A stretch of DNA of 64,000 nucleotides from Halorubrum aquaticum (GCF_900113615.1 NZ_FOPZ01000006.1:62001-126000), one strand, 5' to 3'. Numbered from the stretch's first letter, positions 27,346 through 36,139 are shown. Notes: generated from the sequence alone by a model not told the origin. Numbers and translations are program-made.

Positions 27346-28416
27346 TTATTGGGCACCCTGGTCAATCGATTGTAGGATTGGGTAATCACCGGAAACCGTG
27401 TCCCACGTATTGGTGAAGTCCAACGCTCGCATATTGTTGGGTGCGTCGTCCCCAGTCATCTCGTTCGCAGGCTCTGTGTTACTGGTGCTACCGAATCCTA
27501 CGAAACCACTGCCGGAACTGCCACCGGGTCCGACTGCGCCGTCCTGATTCGTCGTTCCCTTATCCCAGTAGGAATCTTTGAGCTCACCGTTAGCCGCGTT
27601 TCCAATAAGGCCACCACCACCAAGACCAGCACTAACCTTTCCAGTCGCATATGCGTTGGTAACGACCGAACCAGAGAAGTTATTATTTCCGACGAGGGCA
27701 CCACCAAAAGCATACTCACCAGTCACATCGACGTCACCGGTAGCGTATGACTTCTCGATTGTCGCCTCCTCGTTTTTCCCAACGAGCCCACCGACGTTGT
27801 CAGGGCCTTCAACAGTAGCAGCAGAGAACGATTTGCTGATATTGCCATCGGTCGTCCCGACAAGCCCGCCTGTTGTAGGTAGCGTTCCGTCTCCGCCTTG
27901 GACGTCACCAGTAACGTATACCCTTGTAATAGTCGCAGAGTTAGACCCGACAAGCGCACCAACCGAACCTTCGCCCGATATATCCACGTTTTCGAGGCCG
28001 AGGTCTGTGATTTCACCAGGCGATCCGCTTGCCCCAGTTTGACCAAATAGGCCACCAAATCCGTCGGTATCAACCACTAGATCCCTAATTACGTGACCGT
28101 TGCCGTCGAAGGTGCCGTAGAACGGGGTTATCGGAGTGAAACCACCTCCTGCGGGATCAACCACGCTATCGTATCCGGCAGTACTACTATCTAGATCATT
28201 TAGTAACGTGTAGGTAGCACCCGGATTATCACGAACCTCATCAAGATCGTTCCAGTCCCCGATTCCCGTTGGACTTCCCTTTGTGGGGCCGCTGGCAGGT
28301 GGGTCCCCGGTTAGGTCAGCCAGCGCGTCGTTGATCCGGTTCTGCATCTCCGGCGGAATGTCGTCAATCGTCAAACTATCCTCCTCTTCGACAAAATCGG
28401 TGATTGTGAGGGCCAT
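27346..28416 (-). CDS. GLUG-repeat protein with shared N-terminal MALTI segment
   Basis: 356 residues. There is no signal peptide: the N-terminus is an acidic amphipathic segment (MALTITDF, then LTIDDIPPEMQNRINDALAD). It is followed by a Gly/Pro linker and a beta-solenoid made of GLUG-type repeats (GGLVGTTDGNISKSFSAATV, GGLVGKNEEATIEKSYATGD, GALVGNNNFSGSVVTNAYAT). GLUG repeats occur in adhesins and surface enzymes. The first 37 residues match the beta-helix protein at 29877. The ATG directly abuts the stop of a 41-codon micro-ORF. Export, if it happens, would need a non-classical route. Confidence 0.7.
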   Translation of the reverse strand: MALTITDFVEEEDSLTIDDIPPEMQNRINDALADLTGDPPASGPTKGSPTGIGDWNDLDEVRDNPGATYTLLNDLDSSTAGYDSVVDPAGGGFTPITPFYGTFDGNGHVIRDLVVDTDGFGGLFGQTGASGSPGEITDLGLENVDISGEGSVGALVGSNSATITRVYVTGDVQGGDGTLPTTGGLVGTTDGNISKSFSAATVEGPDNVGGLVGKNEEATIEKSYATGDVDVTGEYAFGGALVGNNNFSGSVVTNAYATGKVSAGLGGGGLIGNAANGELKDSYWDKGTTNQDGAVGPGGSSGSGFVGFGSTSNTEPANEMTGDDAPNNMRALDFTNTWDTVSGDYPILQSIDQGAQ

Positions 28417-28542
28417 TTATGAGCTTATCTCGGTGTCTGTTTTGCTCCTCTGTACGTTTCTATCGTCGTGAGAGGCACTCACGGCGAAACTACTCGTCTT
28501 CGACCTACTACGGTCGAGTTCCCAACTCTGTTCTGTACTCAT
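28417..28542 (-). CDS. micro-ORF A, 41 residues, coupled to the GLUG protein gene
   Basis: ATG 28542 to TAA 28417, ending with no gap before the GLUG gene ATG. Its C-terminal 30 residues (SRSKTSSFAVSASHD, then KTDTEISS) align with micro-ORF B at 31731 (SRSRTNGLVVNTSHD, then ITDNEVAS), which has the same position before the other MALTI gene. Homology plus conserved placement supports translation, perhaps for translational coupling or as a small chaperone. The alternative is that the whole leader was duplicated as DNA. Confidence 0.5.
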   Translation of the reverse strand: MSTEQSWELDRSRSKTSSFAVSASHDDRNVQRSKTDTEISS

Positions 28543-28553
28543 TCCAATATTAT

Positions 28554-28605
28554 TCCCTCTCGGGGAGTCCCACCAGCGGAGTCGAACCGCTGTGCTCCAA
28601 GTGGG
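28554..28605 (-). other. T-arm-like RNA element A
   Basis: On the minus strand, CCCAC (28605-28601) pairs with GTGGG (28573-28569) around a hairpin of stem AGCGG/CCGCT and loop TTCGACT, identical in plan to a tRNA T-arm. A short hairpin TCCC/GGGA (28554-28566) follows. It lies between the LamG protein gene and micro-ORF A. No 5' tRNA half is present. Stem pair A-U here is G-C in copies B and C, a compensatory change. Confidence 0.6.
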
Positions 28606-28639
28606 TAGCAATAGGGATCCGGCGTCGACCGAATTGGCG

Positions 28640-29869
28640 CTACTTCGTTGTATCATAAAGGTCGGTTACCTCCTGTGCGGAGAGAACTCGGTCATAAACT
28701 CGAGCGTCATCAATACGACCCGTGAACAGATCTTTCCCGGGAAGATGGGCAGGAGAACCCAGAACGACTGGTGACGGGCGGCTAACGAGGGAGTCGCTTA
28801 CGGACGTATTGGCGGCTTCTACCCCGTCAACATAGAGCCGAACCGCATCGTTCCGATCGAACGTCATCGCGACGTGATGCCAGCTGTCGTCAGCGATCGG
28901 TATTGTCCCAGACACTTCGACACCGTTCGACGATGCCGTATCAACGACAGTCCGTGGTTTGGTCGCGGAAGGGTCTAGTCCGAGATTGTACTGCCGATTT
29001 CCCGCTCCTGACTGCTCGCGAGAAATGATCCGAGCATAATCGTCCTGCGAGGATGCCGGTCGTACCCACGCTACGAGACTAAGCGTGTCTGTCAGATCAA
29101 GGCTCGGGTCGTCCGGTACCTCGACGTAGTCGTTGTCTCCATCAAAAGACGCCGCATTATCAACCTGCCCGGTGGTGGCCGACACACCGTTCGGCGTCCC
29201 GTCGTTGGAGCCGGTGACGTCCTTGACCGTCCCTGTCCCGACGCTATCCAGCGGCCAGTAACTTACCAGTCCGTCAGTCGGGCCTGGAATCGTCGTCCCG
29301 CTCCCGTCGACGACATTCCCGCCCGCAGGATTCGCCACGTCGGCGTTGACAGTCATCGTCAGGGCCTGATCCTCGTCGAGGTCGTCCGTGTCGACGTGGA
29401 CGCCGACGTTCGCGGACTTCCCGACGCCGAGGTAGAGCGCGTCGTCGTCGCTGTCCCGGAGTTTGTCGCCAGAGTCGCCGTTCGGATACAGCCAGACGTC
29501 CGTATCGGTCCCGCCAGCTTGGAACCCTCCGGCCCCTCCGGCGAAGGTCGCCCAGACGTAGATCGGCTGGGTTCCCTGGTTAGTCACCTCGAACACGTCG
29601 TCGAAGTCGTAGATCGAATCGGTGCCCAGTCCGTCGCCGCCGGCGGTCGTCGACGAGAAGTCGAGCGCCAGCGTGTCGTCGGCCGTCGTCGTCGCGAACG
29701 TTCCGTTGGGTCCGCCACTCGGAGCCAGTCCGAGGTAACCGCTCGCGTCGTCGGCGACGGCGACGGTCACGTCCCGATCGGCGCTGACGCTCGTGAACGC
29801 GCCGGTTCCGACGATGCCGCCCGTTCCCGCCACGGTTCCGATACTGAACAGCAGTTTTCGTCGTTTCAT
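28640..29869 (-). CDS. DUF1102/TasA-like secreted protein with LamG domain
   Basis: 409 residues. The signal-like N-terminus MKRRKLLFSIGTVAGTGG leads into GAFTSVSADRDV, the hallmark of this family, then beta-strands with VFEVTNQGTQPIYVWATF. A second module from about residue 200 is a concanavalin/LamG fold: GLVSYWPLDS, ASFDGDNDYVEVPDDPSLDL, SWHHVAMTFDRNDAVRLYVDG, and GRIDDARVYDRVLSAQEV at the end. It is likely an extracellular fibre or matrix subunit carrying a carbohydrate-binding-type domain. It starts 7 nt after the beta-helix gene, so the two are co-transcribed. Confidence 0.8.
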   Translation of the reverse strand: MKRRKLLFSIGTVAGTGGIVGTGAFTSVSADRDVTVAVADDASGYLGLAPSGGPNGTFATTTADDTLALDFSSTTAGGDGLGTDSIYDFDDVFEVTNQGTQPIYVWATFAGGAGGFQAGGTDTDVWLYPNGDSGDKLRDSDDDALYLGVGKSANVGVHVDTDDLDEDQALTMTVNADVANPAGGNVVDGSGTTIPGPTDGLVSYWPLDSVGTGTVKDVTGSNDGTPNGVSATTGQVDNAASFDGDNDYVEVPDDPSLDLTDTLSLVAWVRPASSQDDYARIISREQSGAGNRQYNLGLDPSATKPRTVVDTASSNGVEVSGTIPIADDSWHHVAMTFDRNDAVRLYVDGVEAANTSVSDSLVSRPSPVVLGSPAHLPGKDLFTGRIDDARVYDRVLSAQEVTDLYDTTK

Positions 29870-29876
29870 GGTTCTA

Positions 29877-31730
29877 TCAGCTCGGCGGAGACGTCTCGGA
29901 GACAGGCGGGAACGATCCGACCACTAGCAAACCAATCCGGAGGTCTCTGTAGTAGACGTCAGCAGTCGACCCGCTACCGCCGATCGTCCCCCGACCGGCG
30001 GCTATCGCGAGCAGTTCAGCATCGTCGCTGTACACGCTGCTGAGATCGGAGGTACTCCCCCCGTCACCGAGATTGACCGTGGCACCAGTGGCGGTGATCT
30101 CGAACCAGTTGTAGCCCTGGTTGTTGTCAGGATTACCGCTGATCTCCTTGTGGACGTTCCGAGTTTTCCACTCCTCTGCCGCGGGCGATCCATCTTCGGA
30201 GGTCCGATAGAGAACGTGACGCGTCCCATCGGTCTCCTCGACGAGGAGATACACTTCGTCGGGTGCGGCGTCTTCGTTGTCCGGACCTGCGTAGTACTCG
30301 TAAGTAAGGTTCGTCCCGCCGGCCAGCTCACCGAGCGTCAGCGATTCAGGTCTTTGGGCAAGCGAGATCGCCGTCGTCGCGTAGTCGGTCGTCTGCGTCC
30401 CAGCCGACGTGATGTGTGCGGACGTGGTCTCACCGCCTGTCGGCGATGCGGCCACGACATCGGTGTCGAACTCGTCATCGTCGCTGAAATCGAACTGGTT
30501 CATGCCCTCGGTGACGAACTTCGACGGGACGAGCACCTCGTCGGTTCCGTCATCGTCGAGGTCACCCTGGACGGCGACGAACTCGAAGACGTTGCTCTCG
30601 ATGGTCGCCACGAGATCGACCGCACCGGCATCGTCACGGACGTACGGCAGCGTGGGCCCGTCGCCGTAGTCGAACGAGGTTCGGGAGATCGACACGGACC
30701 CGCCGTCCATCTCAGGGACCGCGATGCCGGCCGGTCCGAGCCCCTCAGGGGTACCGTTCGTGTCGATGGTAATGTCCGAGTCTTGAATGGTGACGTCGTT
30801 CGAGTGTCCTTCGATCTCGACCTCCTGAGCGTTGTTCCCGTTGGTCGTGAGGTTCGTTACTGTCGCACCTCCGTCGACGCTTTCCCCAGCCGCGTCGTCG
30901 CTACTGAGGTCGAGTCCTTCGTCGCCGTTGCCGCCGACGGTGATGTCCTCGAGCGTGTTGTCGTCACCCTTGACGTAAATACCGTTGTCGCCGTTGTTTC
31001 GGGAGGTGACCCTCCGTAGGGTGCTGTCGTCCGTGAACCACAGCGTGATCCCGTCGGCGTCACCGGCGCTGCCGAAGCCGTCCTCGGGCGGATCGCCGCC
31101 CATCTCGCCGCGATCGTAGTTGTCCTCGACCAGCGTGTCCTCGATCAGGACGTCACTGGAGAAGTCGACGACGAGTCCGCGATCGTCGTTGTTCCGTACC
31201 GCCAGATTTTTGAGTTCGGTGCCGTCGGTGTCGTGGGCGTTGCCGTTAACGTCGACGCCCTGTCCGGTCTCTCCACCACCGCTGGCACCGGCGATCTCGA
31301 AGCCGTCGACGACGACATCGGGAGCGTTGATCCGAAGGATCGGTCCGGACAGCGACGGTCCGGACGGATCGCCGATGGACGTCTGATCGCGACCCTGGGC
31401 CGACTGGAGGGTGAGTCCCTCCTTGTTGACGACGACCGTCTCCTCGTAGGTTCCGGGTTCGACGAAGATGGTGTCTCCGGACGTGGCACCGCTGGCTCCG
31501 TTCTGTCCGCCGGTACCGTCGATGGCATCCTGGATGCTCGTGAATCCGGCTCGGCCGTCAAGGTTCTTGCTGACGATGATCGCATCGGGGTTCTGTGGCG
31601 CAGTGCCACCGCCCGGTCCGCCAGTCAGTTCCGCGAGCGCGTCGTTGACGCGCTCCTGTACCTCCGGTGGAACGTCGTCGACGGTCAGTCCCTCCTCCTG
31701 TTCGATGAAGTCGGCGATAGTGAGTGCCAT
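29877..31730 (-). CDS. right-handed beta-helix protein with shared N-terminal MALTI segment
   Basis: 617 residues, very acidic. The first 37 residues (MALTIADF, then LTVDDVPPEVQERVNDALAE) match the GLUG protein. They are followed by a pectate-lyase/NosD-type solenoid, about residues 50-340: SIQDAIDGT, DTIFVEPGTYEETVVVNKEG, then many N-D-G-rich turns (VRNNDDRGLVVDFS, TLRRVTSRNNGDNGIYVKGD). A C-terminal beta domain ends in LRIGLLVVGSFPPVSE. No signal peptide or anchor is evident. Micro-ORF B ends immediately before its ATG, and the LamG protein gene follows after 7 nt. Confidence 0.75.
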   Translation of the reverse strand: MALTIADFIEQEEGLTVDDVPPEVQERVNDALAELTGGPGGGTAPQNPDAIIVSKNLDGRAGFTSIQDAIDGTGGQNGASGATSGDTIFVEPGTYEETVVVNKEGLTLQSAQGRDQTSIGDPSGPSLSGPILRINAPDVVVDGFEIAGASGGGETGQGVDVNGNAHDTDGTELKNLAVRNNDDRGLVVDFSSDVLIEDTLVEDNYDRGEMGGDPPEDGFGSAGDADGITLWFTDDSTLRRVTSRNNGDNGIYVKGDDNTLEDITVGGNGDEGLDLSSDDAAGESVDGGATVTNLTTNGNNAQEVEIEGHSNDVTIQDSDITIDTNGTPEGLGPAGIAVPEMDGGSVSISRTSFDYGDGPTLPYVRDDAGAVDLVATIESNVFEFVAVQGDLDDDGTDEVLVPSKFVTEGMNQFDFSDDDEFDTDVVAASPTGGETTSAHITSAGTQTTDYATTAISLAQRPESLTLGELAGGTNLTYEYYAGPDNEDAAPDEVYLLVEETDGTRHVLYRTSEDGSPAAEEWKTRNVHKEISGNPDNNQGYNWFEITATGATVNLGDGGSTSDLSSVYSDDAELLAIAAGRGTIGGSGSTADVYYRDLRIGLLVVGSFPPVSETSPPS

Positions 31731-31862
31731 CTATGAAGCCACCTCGTTGTCGGTAATCGTTTCGCTGGTTCGTGTGTCCGTTCGGTCGTGAGAGGTGTTC
31801 ACGACGAGACCGTTCGTCCTCGACCTGCTCTGACCGCGCGTCCGGATCCGTCGCCTCCTCAT
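31731..31862 (-). CDS. micro-ORF B, 43 residues, coupled to the beta-helix gene
   Basis: ATG 31862 to TAG 31731, abutting the beta-helix gene ATG. Very basic start (MRRRRIRTRGQ), then the segment shared with micro-ORF A (SRSRTNGLVVNTSHD and a TDNEVAS end). Both micro-ORFs lie between a T-arm-like element and a MALTI gene. Unknown function. Confidence 0.5.
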   Translation of the reverse strand: MRRRRIRTRGQSRSRTNGLVVNTSHDRTDTRTSETITDNEVAS

Positions 31863-31876
31863 GCTGACATCACACC

Positions 31877-31935
31877 TTCTCGGGTAGGCCCACCGGCGGA
31901 GTCGAACCGCCGCTCGTCGCCTCCGAACCAGAGGC
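31877..31935 (-). other. T-arm-like RNA element B
   Basis: On the minus strand, a hairpin CGGCGG / loop TTCGACT / CCGCCG (31912-31894) continues into GTGGG, preceded by a second hairpin GCCTC / 7-nt loop / GAGGC (31935-31919). This mimics the order anticodon arm, variable region, T-arm and acceptor 3' strand. The 5' half of a tRNA is missing and the anticodon-like loop lacks U33, so it is not a tRNA gene. Confidence 0.6.
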
Positions 31936-32008
31936 GAAGATTGCTAGCATGGATTAGATAGCCTCTCGTTCATCACGCTGAATTCGGAATGGTTCGTCGA
32001 AACGTCGT

Positions 32009-32608
32009 TCATGTCCCGGATTCCTCTGGATACGGTTGGGTGGTTAGTTCCACGAACTCGCCCGACGAATCCTCGTCGGCGGCACTTAGAGTCACGGAGA
32101 CCGGTGTTTCGACGGCTTGCTCGGTGAACAACCCGACTTCGGGGTTCGAACGCTCGGCTGCTCCAGTGTCCGGTCCGTCCGGGAGATTCTCGAAGGAGTC
32201 GTTCTTTTCGTCCGCACTGGTCGCTTCGAGCCGAAATCCGGTAACATCGTCGTCGTCGTCGCCGTCGGAAACTGTCACTTTGTAGAAGAGGTTCATTATT
32301 CCCCCTTCGACAGGACTGCCCGATCCCTGAAACTGTTCGATGCGGAATCGAGTAGATGGCAGTTCGGGCTCACCGCCGTCGTCGGGCGGGCCGATCGTCA
32401 CGCCGAACGCCTCCTCTACCGCAGTAACTTCTCCCGAAGTCAGTGGGGGTGAACCCAACCACGCCGGATCGATATTCAGGATCCCCCTAGTGATCCGATC
32501 AAGGACATCGTTCGGTGCGTTTCCCTCAAAGTCGGACCAGGTCGTACTTGGGATTCCCTCTCCTTGCTCCTCATAAACCACCCTCATCGGGCCATGTCTG
32601 TCTGGCAT
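32009..32608 (-). CDS. unknown acidic protein in the surface cluster
   Basis: 199 residues, start overlapping the preceding gene (TAATG). No signal peptide; begins MPDRHGPMRVVYEEQGEG. The middle (RFRIEQFQGSGSPVEGGIMN, FYKVTVSDGD) and the C-terminal half look beta-rich and Asp/Ser-rich, like the DUF1102 mature domains. No family recognised. Translational coupling with the DUF1102 gene at 32608 suggests a partner protein. Confidence 0.55.
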   Translation of the reverse strand: MPDRHGPMRVVYEEQGEGIPSTTWSDFEGNAPNDVLDRITRGILNIDPAWLGSPPLTSGEVTAVEEAFGVTIGPPDDGGEPELPSTRFRIEQFQGSGSPVEGGIMNLFYKVTVSDGDDDDDVTGFRLEATSADEKNDSFENLPDGPDTGAAERSNPEVGLFTEQAVETPVSVTLSAADEDSSGEFVELTTQPYPEESGT

Positions 32609-33135
32609 TACGGTGCCTCCCCAGTGACGGTCATGGTATCGTCGAGTTCGAGATTCGGACTCGTTCCGCTAGGGAACACGTCCACGACGAGGCTATACGT
32701 CTCTCCGTCTCCGGGCGAGACTGTCACTGACGGGAAGCCGGTTTCCGGGACAATCAATACGATCAGGGTGTTCCCTGAGTCCGTCTCAACGAAGGTGAGC
32801 GGTGTGATCTCCACCTCGACGTCTTGGGTACCCTGATTCTGTACCTCGAACATGTCCTCAAACACCGTGACTGCGCTGGTGTTGACACCCTGCCCGCCAG
32901 ATATCCCCGACGTGTTACTCCCGGTGAGATCGATTCCTAACTGTCCGTTGCTCGTGCTCATGTACGGAGCGTTCGGACCGATAGCGTTCAACGCGAGAAA
33001 CGCACTCGAGTCGTTCGCCACTTGGACCGCCACGTCGCGATCGGCCTCCACGCTGGTGAACGCGCCCGTTCCACTCGCGATCGCTGCTCCACCGCTGATC
33101 ATGCCAAGCGCCGCCAACACGTTGCGTCGTTTCAT
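32608..33135 (-). CDS. DUF1102/TasA-like secreted protein
   Basis: 175 residues: MKRRNVLAALGMISGGAA signal-like start, then GAFTSVEADRDVAVQVAND at about residues 24-42, then VFEDMFEVQNQGTQDVEVEI. It is the compact single-domain form, comparable to camelysin/TasA-type fibre subunits that assemble outside the cell by strand exchange; that relation is from family knowledge and is not shown here. T-arm-like element C ends 11 nt before its start. Its stop overlaps the next gene. Confidence 0.75.
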   Translation of the reverse strand: MKRRNVLAALGMISGGAAIASGTGAFTSVEADRDVAVQVANDSSAFLALNAIGPNAPYMSTSNGQLGIDLTGSNTSGISGGQGVNTSAVTVFEDMFEVQNQGTQDVEVEITPLTFVETDSGNTLIVLIVPETGFPSVTVSPGDGETYSLVVDVFPSGTSPNLELDDTMTVTGEAP

Positions 33136-33145
33136 GCTGTATGCC

Positions 33146-33205
33146 TCCCCTGACGGGGGAAACCCACCGGCGGAATCGAACCGCCGTCAAACACCAGCGT
33201 GGGTT
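33146..33205 (-). other. T-arm-like RNA element C
   Basis: The best-formed copy. On the minus strand, AACCCAC (33205-33199) pairs with GTGGGTT (33167-33161) over seven bp, enclosing a 12-nt bulge and the hairpin CGGCGG / TTCGATT / CCGCCG. Then comes a hairpin TCCCC/GGGGA (33160-33146). The loop differs from A and B only at the variable T-loop position (C to T). It lies in the leader of the 33135 gene. Confidence 0.65.
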
Positions 33206-33246: not shown

Positions 33247-33912
33247 TCAGGGATTAACGATCAGGTTAGGTGTTCCAGGATCGATTGTCGTTCCACTATC
33301 GTCGGTGTCGGCAACGATCGTGGTCATCTCGCCTTGGGTAGTGTTGTTATCGGTCGGGTTGTTGACGTTTCCGTAGGTGGATTCGTCGTCAGTAACAATT
33401 CGTACACCAACGGGTCGCTGTCCACCGACCGGAACTGTCAGGTCTGCGGTGGTACCATCAATCACGGTACGGTTGCCGCTTCCGTCTTTCGCGATGAATT
33501 CCAACGTAACATCGCCCGGATTTCCACTTCCATTTTGCAGCGGGACGTCAATCAACGACGTGATATCCACATAGACATCCTGGGTTCCCTGATTTTCAAT
33601 CCGGAACACGTCGTCGAAAATGTATGTCGAATCTACGCCGACCCCTTGACTCGATGTTGGGGTCCCCTGCCAAGTATCATTTGCATTATTGAAATCTAAT
33701 GCGATCTCACCATCTCCTGAATCTGCCGTCGCGAAGGTGGCATTTGGTTGACTACCACTTGGGAAGATCGCGAGGAATGAGTCAGATTCGTCAGCAACAG
33801 CAACGGTTGCCATCCGATCCGCATTGACACTCGTGAAAGCCCCAGTACCGAGCATCCCGCCTGCCCCAGCCACGGCGGCTCCAATACCTGCGATGAGACC
33901 TCTACGTTTCAT
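33247..33912 (-). CDS. DUF1102/TasA-like secreted protein
   Basis: 221 residues: MKRRGLIAGIGAAVAGAG start, GAFTSVNADRMATVAVADES, then DDVFRIENQGTQDVYVDITS, and a long C-terminal beta region with a PVGGQRPVGVRIVTDDEST block. Same architecture as its neighbours, with about 40% visible motif identity around the two signature blocks. It is 15 nt downstream of another family member, so they form one transcript. Exported, probably by Tat or Sec, as a surface fibre component. Confidence 0.75.
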   Translation of the reverse strand: MKRRGLIAGIGAAVAGAGGMLGTGAFTSVNADRMATVAVADESDSFLAIFPSGSQPNATFATADSGDGEIALDFNNANDTWQGTPTSSQGVGVDSTYIFDDVFRIENQGTQDVYVDITSLIDVPLQNGSGNPGDVTLEFIAKDGSGNRTVIDGTTADLTVPVGGQRPVGVRIVTDDESTYGNVNNPTDNNTTQGEMTTIVADTDDSGTTIDPGTPNLIVNP

Positions 33913-34668: not shown

Positions 34669-35039
34669 ATCTACTTCGTTATGAGATCCTCGAGGCTACA
34701 TCGTGGAGCACTCGATGAATCGAATGGCCAACTCGATTCAGTTCAAGCACGTCTCGTTGTTCGCATCAAGCAGTGCTTGAAGTTGAAATCCACATATATC
34801 GCGGATTTCAGGGTATCGTTTTGGACAAATCGAGAAGAGCTTGAAGACCCAAGAGTGGACCCTGTGTCATTTCAATCAGTCCTATCACAACTGACAAGGA
34901 AGCCCTGATAACATAAAATAGAAAATAATAACAGATGAAATATGCTAGTAGTTTACAATATCTACCCTCACAAATATCAACTGACACTCGGCGGCTTGGG
35001 ACTGGGATACCTTGGCCGGCGGACAAGGGGGTCGATCCA
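34669..35039. other. divergent intergenic region of the surface cluster
   Basis: No gene seen. AT-rich around 34905-34960 (for example ACATAAAATAGAAAATAATA), so it probably holds the promoters of the minus-strand surface cluster and of the plus-strand regulator. Confidence 0.4.
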
Positions 35040-35621
35040 ATGCCACCAATCACTACACCGGCAAACGAATCAAACTCAAATGGGAATGAACTGTCCGAAG
35101 ACGATATTTATGGTGTTCTATCGAACCGACGACGACGATTTGTGATCCACGCGCTCAAACGCAAGCAAGGACCGGTCGATATCTCTGAACTTTCGGCGCA
35201 CATCACTGCCTGGGAAACCGGTAAAGATCCGGACGAGGTCGAGTACGAGGATCACCGAAGCGTGTACAGTACGCTCAAGCGTACCCACTTGCCAAATCTC
35301 GAAGAGAACAACATCGTAACCATCGACAAAGAAGAGAATGTGGTTCGTCCCACACCTCAACTAGAAAGTCTTGATATTTATGTCGAGGCTGTCAGCAGCA
35401 AGGAGATCCCGTGGAGCCTTTACTACGTCGGGCTCGCAGGTGTCGCGCTCACACTCCTACTCGCGGTCACAGTTGAAGCACCGATATTTGGAGCACTCAA
35501 GCCGCTTGAAGTGGGTATTTTTACAGTCACCGCCTTCGGAATATCGTCAGTTGTCCACCACATCATCGGCCTCCGCACCCGTCTTGGTAATAGGGAGAAA
35601 CCACCTGAACTCTATCAGTGA
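35040..35621 (+). CDS. DUF7344-like winged-helix regulator with two membrane helices
   Basis: 193 residues from ATG 35040. The N-terminal winged helix (DDIYGVLSNRRRRFVIHALK, ISELSAHITAWE, HRSVYSTLKRTHLPNLEENN) matches the haloarchaeal DUF7344 type. Two C-terminal transmembrane segments (SLYYVGLAGVALTLLLAVTV and a second near residue 160) tether it to the membrane. Such a protein could sense the envelope and control the adjacent surface genes. It overlaps the next gene by 4 nt. Confidence 0.75.
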   Translation: MPPITTPANESNSNGNELSEDDIYGVLSNRRRRFVIHALKRKQGPVDISELSAHITAWETGKDPDEVEYEDHRSVYSTLKRTHLPNLEENNIVTIDKEENVVRPTPQLESLDIYVEAVSSKEIPWSLYYVGLAGVALTLLLAVTVEAPIFGALKPLEVGIFTVTAFGISSVVHHIIGLRTRLGNREKPPELYQ

Positions 35622-36139
35622 GAATGAGAGCACCTAGTCGGACGTCGCCGATTCGTGTGGGGAAATTCCGTCTCTTGAGCATTCTTCTCGCATTTACAGC
35701 AGCAGTCGGACTTATTTTTGGTACCGCTGGGTTCACCACTATGGATGCTGACCGCGGAGTTGGGATCAACGTAGCTGAGGACGACAATGCATATCTCGGC
35801 TATTTGCCGCTCGTTGACGGGGGTGAGAATATTACTGCAGGGGAACCCACACCGCTCGTAGAGTACCACAACCAAGTCGGTGTTAACCTCGACACATTGG
35901 AGGTCGACGTTTCGCGCCCAGATTCGTCTGGACCCACAATCAAAACCTTCGATTCCCCCGATCAACTCGATCGAGGTAGCGCTGGTACCGTCATCGTTAC
36001 GCTGACCTGTTCTACAACACAGGTGGTCGAACTCAACTTTGAGGTGACCGGTAGCGGATCAGGAACAAGCGTCTCGCTTGATCGTACTCTCAGCGTTACG
36101 TGCGTACCGAATCAAGAGGAGGGGGAAGATGAGGAGTGA
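35618..36139 (+). CDS. DUF1102-like exported protein coupled to the regulator
   Basis: 173 residues from GTG 35618 (or ATG 35624). Signal-like helix LLSILLAFTAAVGLIFGTAG, then GFTTMDADRGVGINVAEDD, a variant of the family hallmark, then a short beta domain without the NQGTQ block and an acidic EEGEDEE end. It shares an ATGA-type overlap with the membrane regulator, suggesting that the two proteins work together, for example as a sensor pair. Confidence 0.65.
   Translation: MRMRAPSRTSPIRVGKFRLLSILLAFTAAVGLIFGTAGFTTMDADRGVGINVAEDDNAYLGYLPLVDGGENITAGEPTPLVEYHNQVGVNLDTLEVDVSRPDSSGPTIKTFDSPDQLDRGSAGTVIVTLTCSTTQVVELNFEVTGSGSGTSVSLDRTLSVTCVPNQEEGEDEE

Follow-up and report, generated by a model that had tools for sequence, protein, structure and literature searches.

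Three T-arm-like elements within a fimbrial gene cluster

We analysed a 64,000-nt stretch of Halorubrum aquaticum DNA (the window), whose minus strand carries a fimbrial gene cluster interrupted by three copies, A, B and C, of a T-arm-like element. A preliminary description of this DNA had reported three minus-strand copies with a T-stem, a TTCGACT or TTCGATT loop and GTGGG. All three were found in the window sequence, at coordinates that we refined. The features are listed below in the order in which they lie along the minus strand.

33247..33912, minus: DUF1102/TafE-like gene upstream of element C (profile matches)
33163..33203, minus: element C, minimal class (sequence, covariance model R1, fold)
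33146..33160, minus: hairpin TCCCC-CGTCA-GGGGA with the Shine-Dalgarno (SD)-like GGGGAGG, beginning 2 nt past the GTGGG of element C (sequence, fold)
32608..33135, minus: DUF1102/TafE-like fimbrial protein with a Tat/SipW-type N-terminus, directly after element C
32009..32608, minus: second gene of unit C, overlapping the first
31889..31953, minus: element B, long-insert class (sequence, fold, R1)
31873..31886, minus: weak hairpin (U)ACC..GGU(G) after element B, overlapping the SD-like GGTGTGATG (sequence)
31731..31862, minus: small ORF of 43 aa directly after element B (sequence)
29877..31730, minus: MALTI-type protein of unit B, right-handed beta helix (PF13229)
28640..29869, minus: DUF1102/Taf-like protein of unit B with a C-terminal laminin-G/ConA-like domain (profile matches)
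28569..28605, minus: element A, minimal class (sequence, R1, fold)
28554..28566, minus: hairpin TCCC-CGAGA-GGGA after element A, before the ATG at 28542 (sequence, family-wide hairpin statistic)
28417..28542, minus: small ORF of 41 aa directly after element A (sequence)
27346..28416, minus: MALTI-type protein of unit A with a GLUG repeat (PF07581)

In element A, the acceptor 5' strand CCCAC (28605-28601) and 3' strand GTGGG (28573-28569) enclose the bulge TTGGAGCA with its GG, the T-stem CAGCGG/CCGCTG and the T-loop TTCGACT (28586-28580). Element C consists of CCCAC (33203-33199), the bulge GCTGGTGTTTGA, the T-stem CGGCGG/CCGCCG with the T-loop TTCGATT (33180-33174), and GTGGG (33167-33163). 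Element B has the T-stem CGGCGG/CCGCCG (31912-31894) and the T-loop TTCGACT (31906-31900). The T-stem is 6 bp long in all three copies and GTGGG follows it directly; the change from AGCGG/CCGCT in A to GGCGG/CCGCC in B and C, noted earlier, was seen again within these longer stems. The preliminary description had assigned an outer stem to A and C only. Element B turned out to have a wobble version of it, TCCAT (31953-31949) with GTGGG (31893-31889), including two G-U wobbles, and its minimum-free-energy fold shows exactly this outer stem plus an extra hairpin, CGCCTC/GAGGCG, in the insert between the acceptor strands.

T-arm and acceptor are 88-96% identical among the three copies, and identity in the flanks is mostly at random level (0.16-0.54). 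Elements A and C, both training members, score 56 and 63 bits with the covariance model R1 described below, while element B, from outside the training set, is matched in part (28.7 bits, E 9e-5). A second small hairpin over an SD-like sequence precedes the ATG in all copies and is weak in B. The hairpin after element C has a fold of -12.6 kcal/mol (z -2.4), and cleavage is predicted to leave the 5' end of the downstream mRNA at its base. ARAGORN found no tRNA within the 64-kb window, and no Rfam family reached its gathering threshold. We therefore rejected both a known Rfam RNA and a tRNA gene, the latter also on D-arm, anticodon arm and tRNA score.

The product of the gene directly after element C matches NCBIfam TafE (E 1e-19, under the curated cut-off), PF06510 and PDB 9p0a 'Pilin' (E 2e-12). 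Protein family profile searches gave no match for the product of the second gene in unit C. Similarity of the window DUF1102 proteins to NCBIfam Taf fimbrial families is weak to moderate and in every case below the curated cut-offs. The two MALTI-type proteins share the N-terminus MALTIxDFxEEEdxLTxDDxPPExQxRxNDALAxLTG and are otherwise different; a signal peptide is not evident, and the shared segment may be a docking or export domain. A third MALTI-like protein, MPLTIADFFEQ..., is encoded directly after an element at another locus (L072). The 43- and 41-aa ORFs, each lying between an element and a MALTI gene, resemble one another (SRSxTxxxVxxSHDxx) and possibly form an uncharacterised small protein family.

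The element belongs to a large haloarchaeal RNA family

A covariance model search, proposed in the preliminary description, returned many further copies across haloarchaea, and the tRNA-like element between fimbrial genes is a large RNA family that includes A, B and C. Its plan is CCCAC, a short bulge with a fixed GG, CGGCGG-TTCGAYT-CCGCCG, GTGGG, a small SD-carrying hairpin and an ATG about 25 nt on. The pattern GGTTCGAYTCC-N3-5-GTGGG occurred in 89 of 170 genomes of the same family, often several times per genome and in arrays; in the same scan the reversed control pattern gave zero in every genome listed. Among the first 30 loci returned, three with a different gap length (L011, L013 and L029) look like chance matches inside other sequence. 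Among the matches listed in a pattern scan of contigs, used for orientation only, the haloarchaeal records look element-like and the bacterial ones look like ordinary tRNA genes, as judged by title.

Among 49 short-insert copies, pairing holds in 97% of cells, and each of the five measures lies above all 500 shuffles. Pairing is lost when the partner strand is slid by 1-3 columns, and the covariation exceeds that of every slid register. Because the T-loop and GTGGG belonged to the selection pattern, their conservation in this set is partly imposed. The genome-wide pattern did not impose the T-stem changes (GC, AU and CG at one pair), the upstream CCCAC or the GG. CCCAY lies upstream in 128 of 139 copies (37.6 expected), and GG follows 2 or 3 nt past it in 112 of these 128. 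A sixth acceptor pair is slightly enriched (52 of 95, versus 39.9 expected). Since this enrichment is only slight, we take the conserved length as 11 bp, and rejected a 12-bp coaxial helix as in tRNA. Both helices rest on pairing and covariation; the acceptor helix would stack coaxially on the T-stem.

The preliminary description had expected copies upstream of DUF1102 or MALTI genes elsewhere. Outside the window, further copies indeed precede DUF1102 genes, SipW-type genes and one MALTI-type gene. Other loci encode SipW-dependent-type proteins (TIGR04088), some of them camelysin-like. A Natronorubrum bangense plasmid carries three SipW-type genes; each of the two gaps between them holds an element, and a signal peptidase I is encoded three genes further along.

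Elements mark internal genes of fimbrial operons

We determined the placement of the elements at loci chosen for holding at least one copy, where we then catalogued genes with a Tat/SipW-type N-terminus regardless of the element; because of this selection, the figures are not genome-wide rates. An element lies upstream of 86 of 96 internal Tat/SipW-type fimbrial or matrix genes, versus 15 of 46 first genes (Fisher p 7e-12). A few exceptions have visibly mutated copies, such as TTCGACG in L036 and L054. Conversely, 115 of 139 elements have a Tat/SipW-type ORF within 260 nt downstream, versus 255 of 3935 positions drawn at random from these loci, and several ORFs of the remaining 24 elements likewise begin with RR without fitting the strict motif. 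The median distance from GTGGG to the start codon is 25 nt for the 115 elements, and that from the upstream stop codon to CCCAC is 28 nt.

A TATA-like motif was present at 2 of 109 internal copies versus 11 of 12 first-gene copies, which lie about 45 nt past ATTAGCTAT. With internal copies lacking a promoter and first-gene copies just past one, the element is transcribed in both settings; the same count led us to reject a separate promoter before each copy. A GC hairpin follows 107 of 139 copies (shuffled control 20.5). In 77 of the 139 it begins 2-3 nt past GTGGG, the position at which 5S rRNA starts after its own element, as described next.

The mRNA elements are akin to the 5S rRNA t-element

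The covariance model R1, built from the 49 mRNA copies only, has matches, counting mRNA and rRNA copies alike, in 199 of 341 genomes of the class and in 64 of 81 genera. When 197 genomes sampled from the phylum were scanned, all matches fell in the same order. Recurrent matches at contig ends are in rRNA operons: in 11 of 11 cases, at 38-50 bits, they directly abut an Rfam 5S start. In a Haloferax-like genus of the same family (15 genomes), R1 finds only 5S copies, 12 of 12 abutting 5S at 30-42 bits; most genomes tested in this genus carry SipW-type genes. When mRNA and 5S copies were aligned jointly, 99.7% of cells pair and the covariation exceeds all 500 shuffles. Helices of 5 and 6 bp, an invariant GG and the T-loop are common to both, and the acceptors differ by compensatory changes (CCCAC/GTGGG, CCGAC/GTCGG, CCGAT/ATCGG, CCAAC/GTTGG). 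The 5S rRNA starts about 3 nt past the acceptor of its element.

This 5S-associated structure is a known processing signal. The Hfx. volcanii t-element lies directly upstream of 5S, and its processing by tRNase Z yields the 5S 5' end; with RNase P and tRNase Z it also releases crRNAs in vivo from engineered constructs (PMC3296008; PMC4326828; PMC4946936). T-elements are described as substrates of both enzymes (PMC4326828, which cites Holzle et al. 2008 RNA 14:928 and 2012 Biochimie 94:940). The preliminary description named no described element of this kind in archaeal surface operons; in haloarchaea, a similar one is described, the 5S t-element. A published Hfx. volcanii t-element primer, ACCGATATTGGTATGGCAACC (21 nt, PMC4326828), lies inside an R1 5S hit of the Haloferax-like genus with 20/21 identity (one mismatch), its first base falling on base three of the matched segment. 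The model derived from window-type copies thus reaches an experimentally used element.

The H. aquaticum genome encodes an RNase Z (tRNase Z) above the family cut-off. The 2012 Biochimie study of Hfx. volcanii reportedly predicted about 47 more tRNA-like elements, those tested not being cut in vitro. Considering that all R1 matches in the Haloferax-like genus are 5S copies, these predicted elements probably lie outside the mRNA-element family.

In H. aquaticum itself, the 5S leader gives a weak R1 match (15 bits) at the corresponding position. This own-genome t-element (L031:135-194) has strongly diverged from those of other haloarchaea, keeps its pre-5S position and T-arm, and has an extra hairpin like that of the long-insert mRNA class. 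Another genome has two tandem 5S genes with a t-element of its own before each (L224, L225).

Proposed processing of fimbrial transcripts and alternatives

We read A, B and C as mRNA t-elements, where polycistronic fimbrial transcripts would be cut by tRNase Z, perhaps together with RNase P, and assign this reading a probability of about 0.6. The elements have the form of the tRNase Z signal before 5S rRNA, so that fimbrial messages are probably cut by the tRNA machinery. Recruitment of tRNA-processing enzymes, suggested in the preliminary description, is likewise the best-supported reading here, as R1 finds a tRNase Z substrate; the cut itself is a prediction. Each copy would be a minimal tRNA mimic between cistrons, made of an acceptor helix, a D-loop-like GG bulge and a T-arm with a canonical T-loop, and would fold in the polycistronic transcript into a tRNA-elbow-like shape. 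tRNase Z, possibly with RNase P on the 5' side, would recognise this fold as it does in the 5S pre-rRNA t-element and cut 1-3 nt 3' of GTGGG. The freed downstream mRNA would then begin at the foot of the short GC hairpin that holds the SD-like sequence, 10-25 nt before the start codon. Each unit of two to three genes could in this way become a separate mRNA with a hairpin-capped leader, so that subunits made from one promoter might differ in stability and translation.

The weak points of the cleavage reading are the nearly invariant acceptor of the mRNA copies, the copies in the leaders of some first genes and the reported lack of in vitro cutting of other predicted Hfx. volcanii elements; the merely slight enrichment of a sixth acceptor pair and the low R1 score of the H. 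aquaticum 5S t-element also speak against it. A nuclease that reads shape alone would not require an invariant CCCAC/GTGGG, which implies some further sequence constraint. The first two points would suit an uncut element under translational control, where the acceptor-T helix is bound by a protein or by a factor that recognises tRNA, and the hairpin either hides or exposes the fimbrial SD: promoter-proximal leaders have no cistrons to separate, and the element is tightly coupled to a hairpin overlapping the SD-like sequence before the ATG. A weak excess of anti-SD pairing (-7.0 versus -5.5 kcal/mol, in a mixed set) points the same way. Yet the structure is that of the cleaved 5S t-element, with the same offset to the putative next functional RNA segment, and 31 of 46 first genes have no element although translation is needed there too. 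We consider this account unlikely, if worth serious attention; the leader switch raised as an alternative in the preliminary description is possible.

RNase P cutting 5' of CCCAC could instead serve to end the upstream message, any downstream effect being secondary. The short distance from the upstream stop codon (median 28 nt) and the description of t-elements as RNase P as well as tRNase Z substrates (PMC4326828) agree with such a 3'-end maker. However, no message lies upstream of the copies in first-gene leaders, and spacing is tighter on the downstream side, which leaves this version improbable. We give still less weight to a DNA site, a recombination or cassette boundary with the hairpin as a DNA feature. 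The arms are palindromic and the copies are regularly spaced (median 1.7 kb) between paralogous gene units, but the sole family resemblance found is to a transcribed RNA processing signal before 5S rRNA, and this kinship disfavours a DNA site. Moreover, the conserved T-loop and GG are tRNA features, orientation and distance to the start codon are fixed, and the sequences around the three window copies mostly bear no relation to one another. Decay of tRNA genes left by integration events, named in the preliminary description as a refuting outcome and suggested by the T-arm resemblance, is refuted almost beyond doubt by compensatory changes, conservation across haloarchaeal genera and siting at gene boundaries of one gene class, the minimal class also lacking an anticodon arm and any tRNA score (ARAGORN, Rfam). 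Halovirus tRNA-like att sequences were rejected as a source, being described as partial tRNAs beside an integrase with another structure and setting.

Returning to the cleavage reading, one could extend it to a dedicated 'tRNA punctuation' system, in which regulated t-element cleavage, through the availability of tRNase Z or RNase P or through a factor reading CCCAC/GTGGG, sets fimbrial subunit stoichiometry. This extension is speculative and, in our view, doubtful.

Relation to known systems

The mRNA element resembles the 5S pre-rRNA t-element in its 5-bp acceptor, short GG bulge, 6-bp T-stem and 7-nt T-loop, in being found by the mRNA-derived R1, and, as predicted for the mRNAs, in the next functional RNA beginning about 3 nt past the acceptor. 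The two differ in location (before 5S rRNA versus between protein genes) and in acceptor, CCGAY/RTCGG or CCAAC/GTTGG in the 5S element versus CCCAC/GTGGG. Unlike the mRNA element, the 5S t-element has no SD hairpin and usually no extra arm.

Animal mitochondrial polycistrons have tRNA structures that separate the cistrons of one transcript; these are real tRNAs, whereas the archaeal element is a minimal mimic that lacks an anticodon arm. Plant mitochondrial t-elements (Hanic-Joyce 1990, Forner 2007) are, according to PMC11658184, tRNA-like sequences at mRNA ends that are cut by RNase P and RNase Z and define those ends. The t-element is hence already known as a processing signal for haloarchaeal 5S rRNA and, from the same source, for plant mitochondrial mRNAs. 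The likeness of the plant and the archaeal elements, as tRNA-like sequences that would lie at mRNA ends, is one of analogy; the plant ones are full tRNA-derived structures, whereas the archaeal copies form a recurring family associated with a single class of genes.

The genes that the element precedes fall among haloarchaeal Taf fimbriae and SipW-dependent TasA-camelysin-like proteins (NCBIfam NF052520-22, TIGR04088; PDB 9p0a). These entries are protein families, not RNA, and the window Taf scores lie below their curated cut-offs. Our literature search found no report of an RNA element in Taf/SipW operons and no papers on Taf fimbriae; covering few subscription papers, it likewise found no report of t-element use in archaeal mRNAs or between protein genes. 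Processing signals known from archaeal mRNAs are few, and the sole archaeal tRNA-like processing element that we found documented serves 5S rRNA. If the proposed cleavage holds, haloarchaeal mRNAs would have adopted a 5S signal time and again to part the genes of their fimbria and biofilm-matrix operons, which would be a prokaryotic counterpart of mitochondrial t-elements and could explain unequal subunit amounts from one operon. The analysis provides exact, testable predicted cleavage positions and a covariance model that finds further copies.

Two minor observations concern regulation. On the plus strand, divergent from the fimbrial cluster, a DUF7344 gene (34935-35621) is followed by a TafC-like gene (35618-36139), a pair that offers a candidate local regulator. 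In several genera, a promoter motif, (C/G)ATTAGCTATGGGGGT, is conserved ahead of the first gene of SipW-type operons (e.g. L069, L048 and L044), which suggests a shared regulator.
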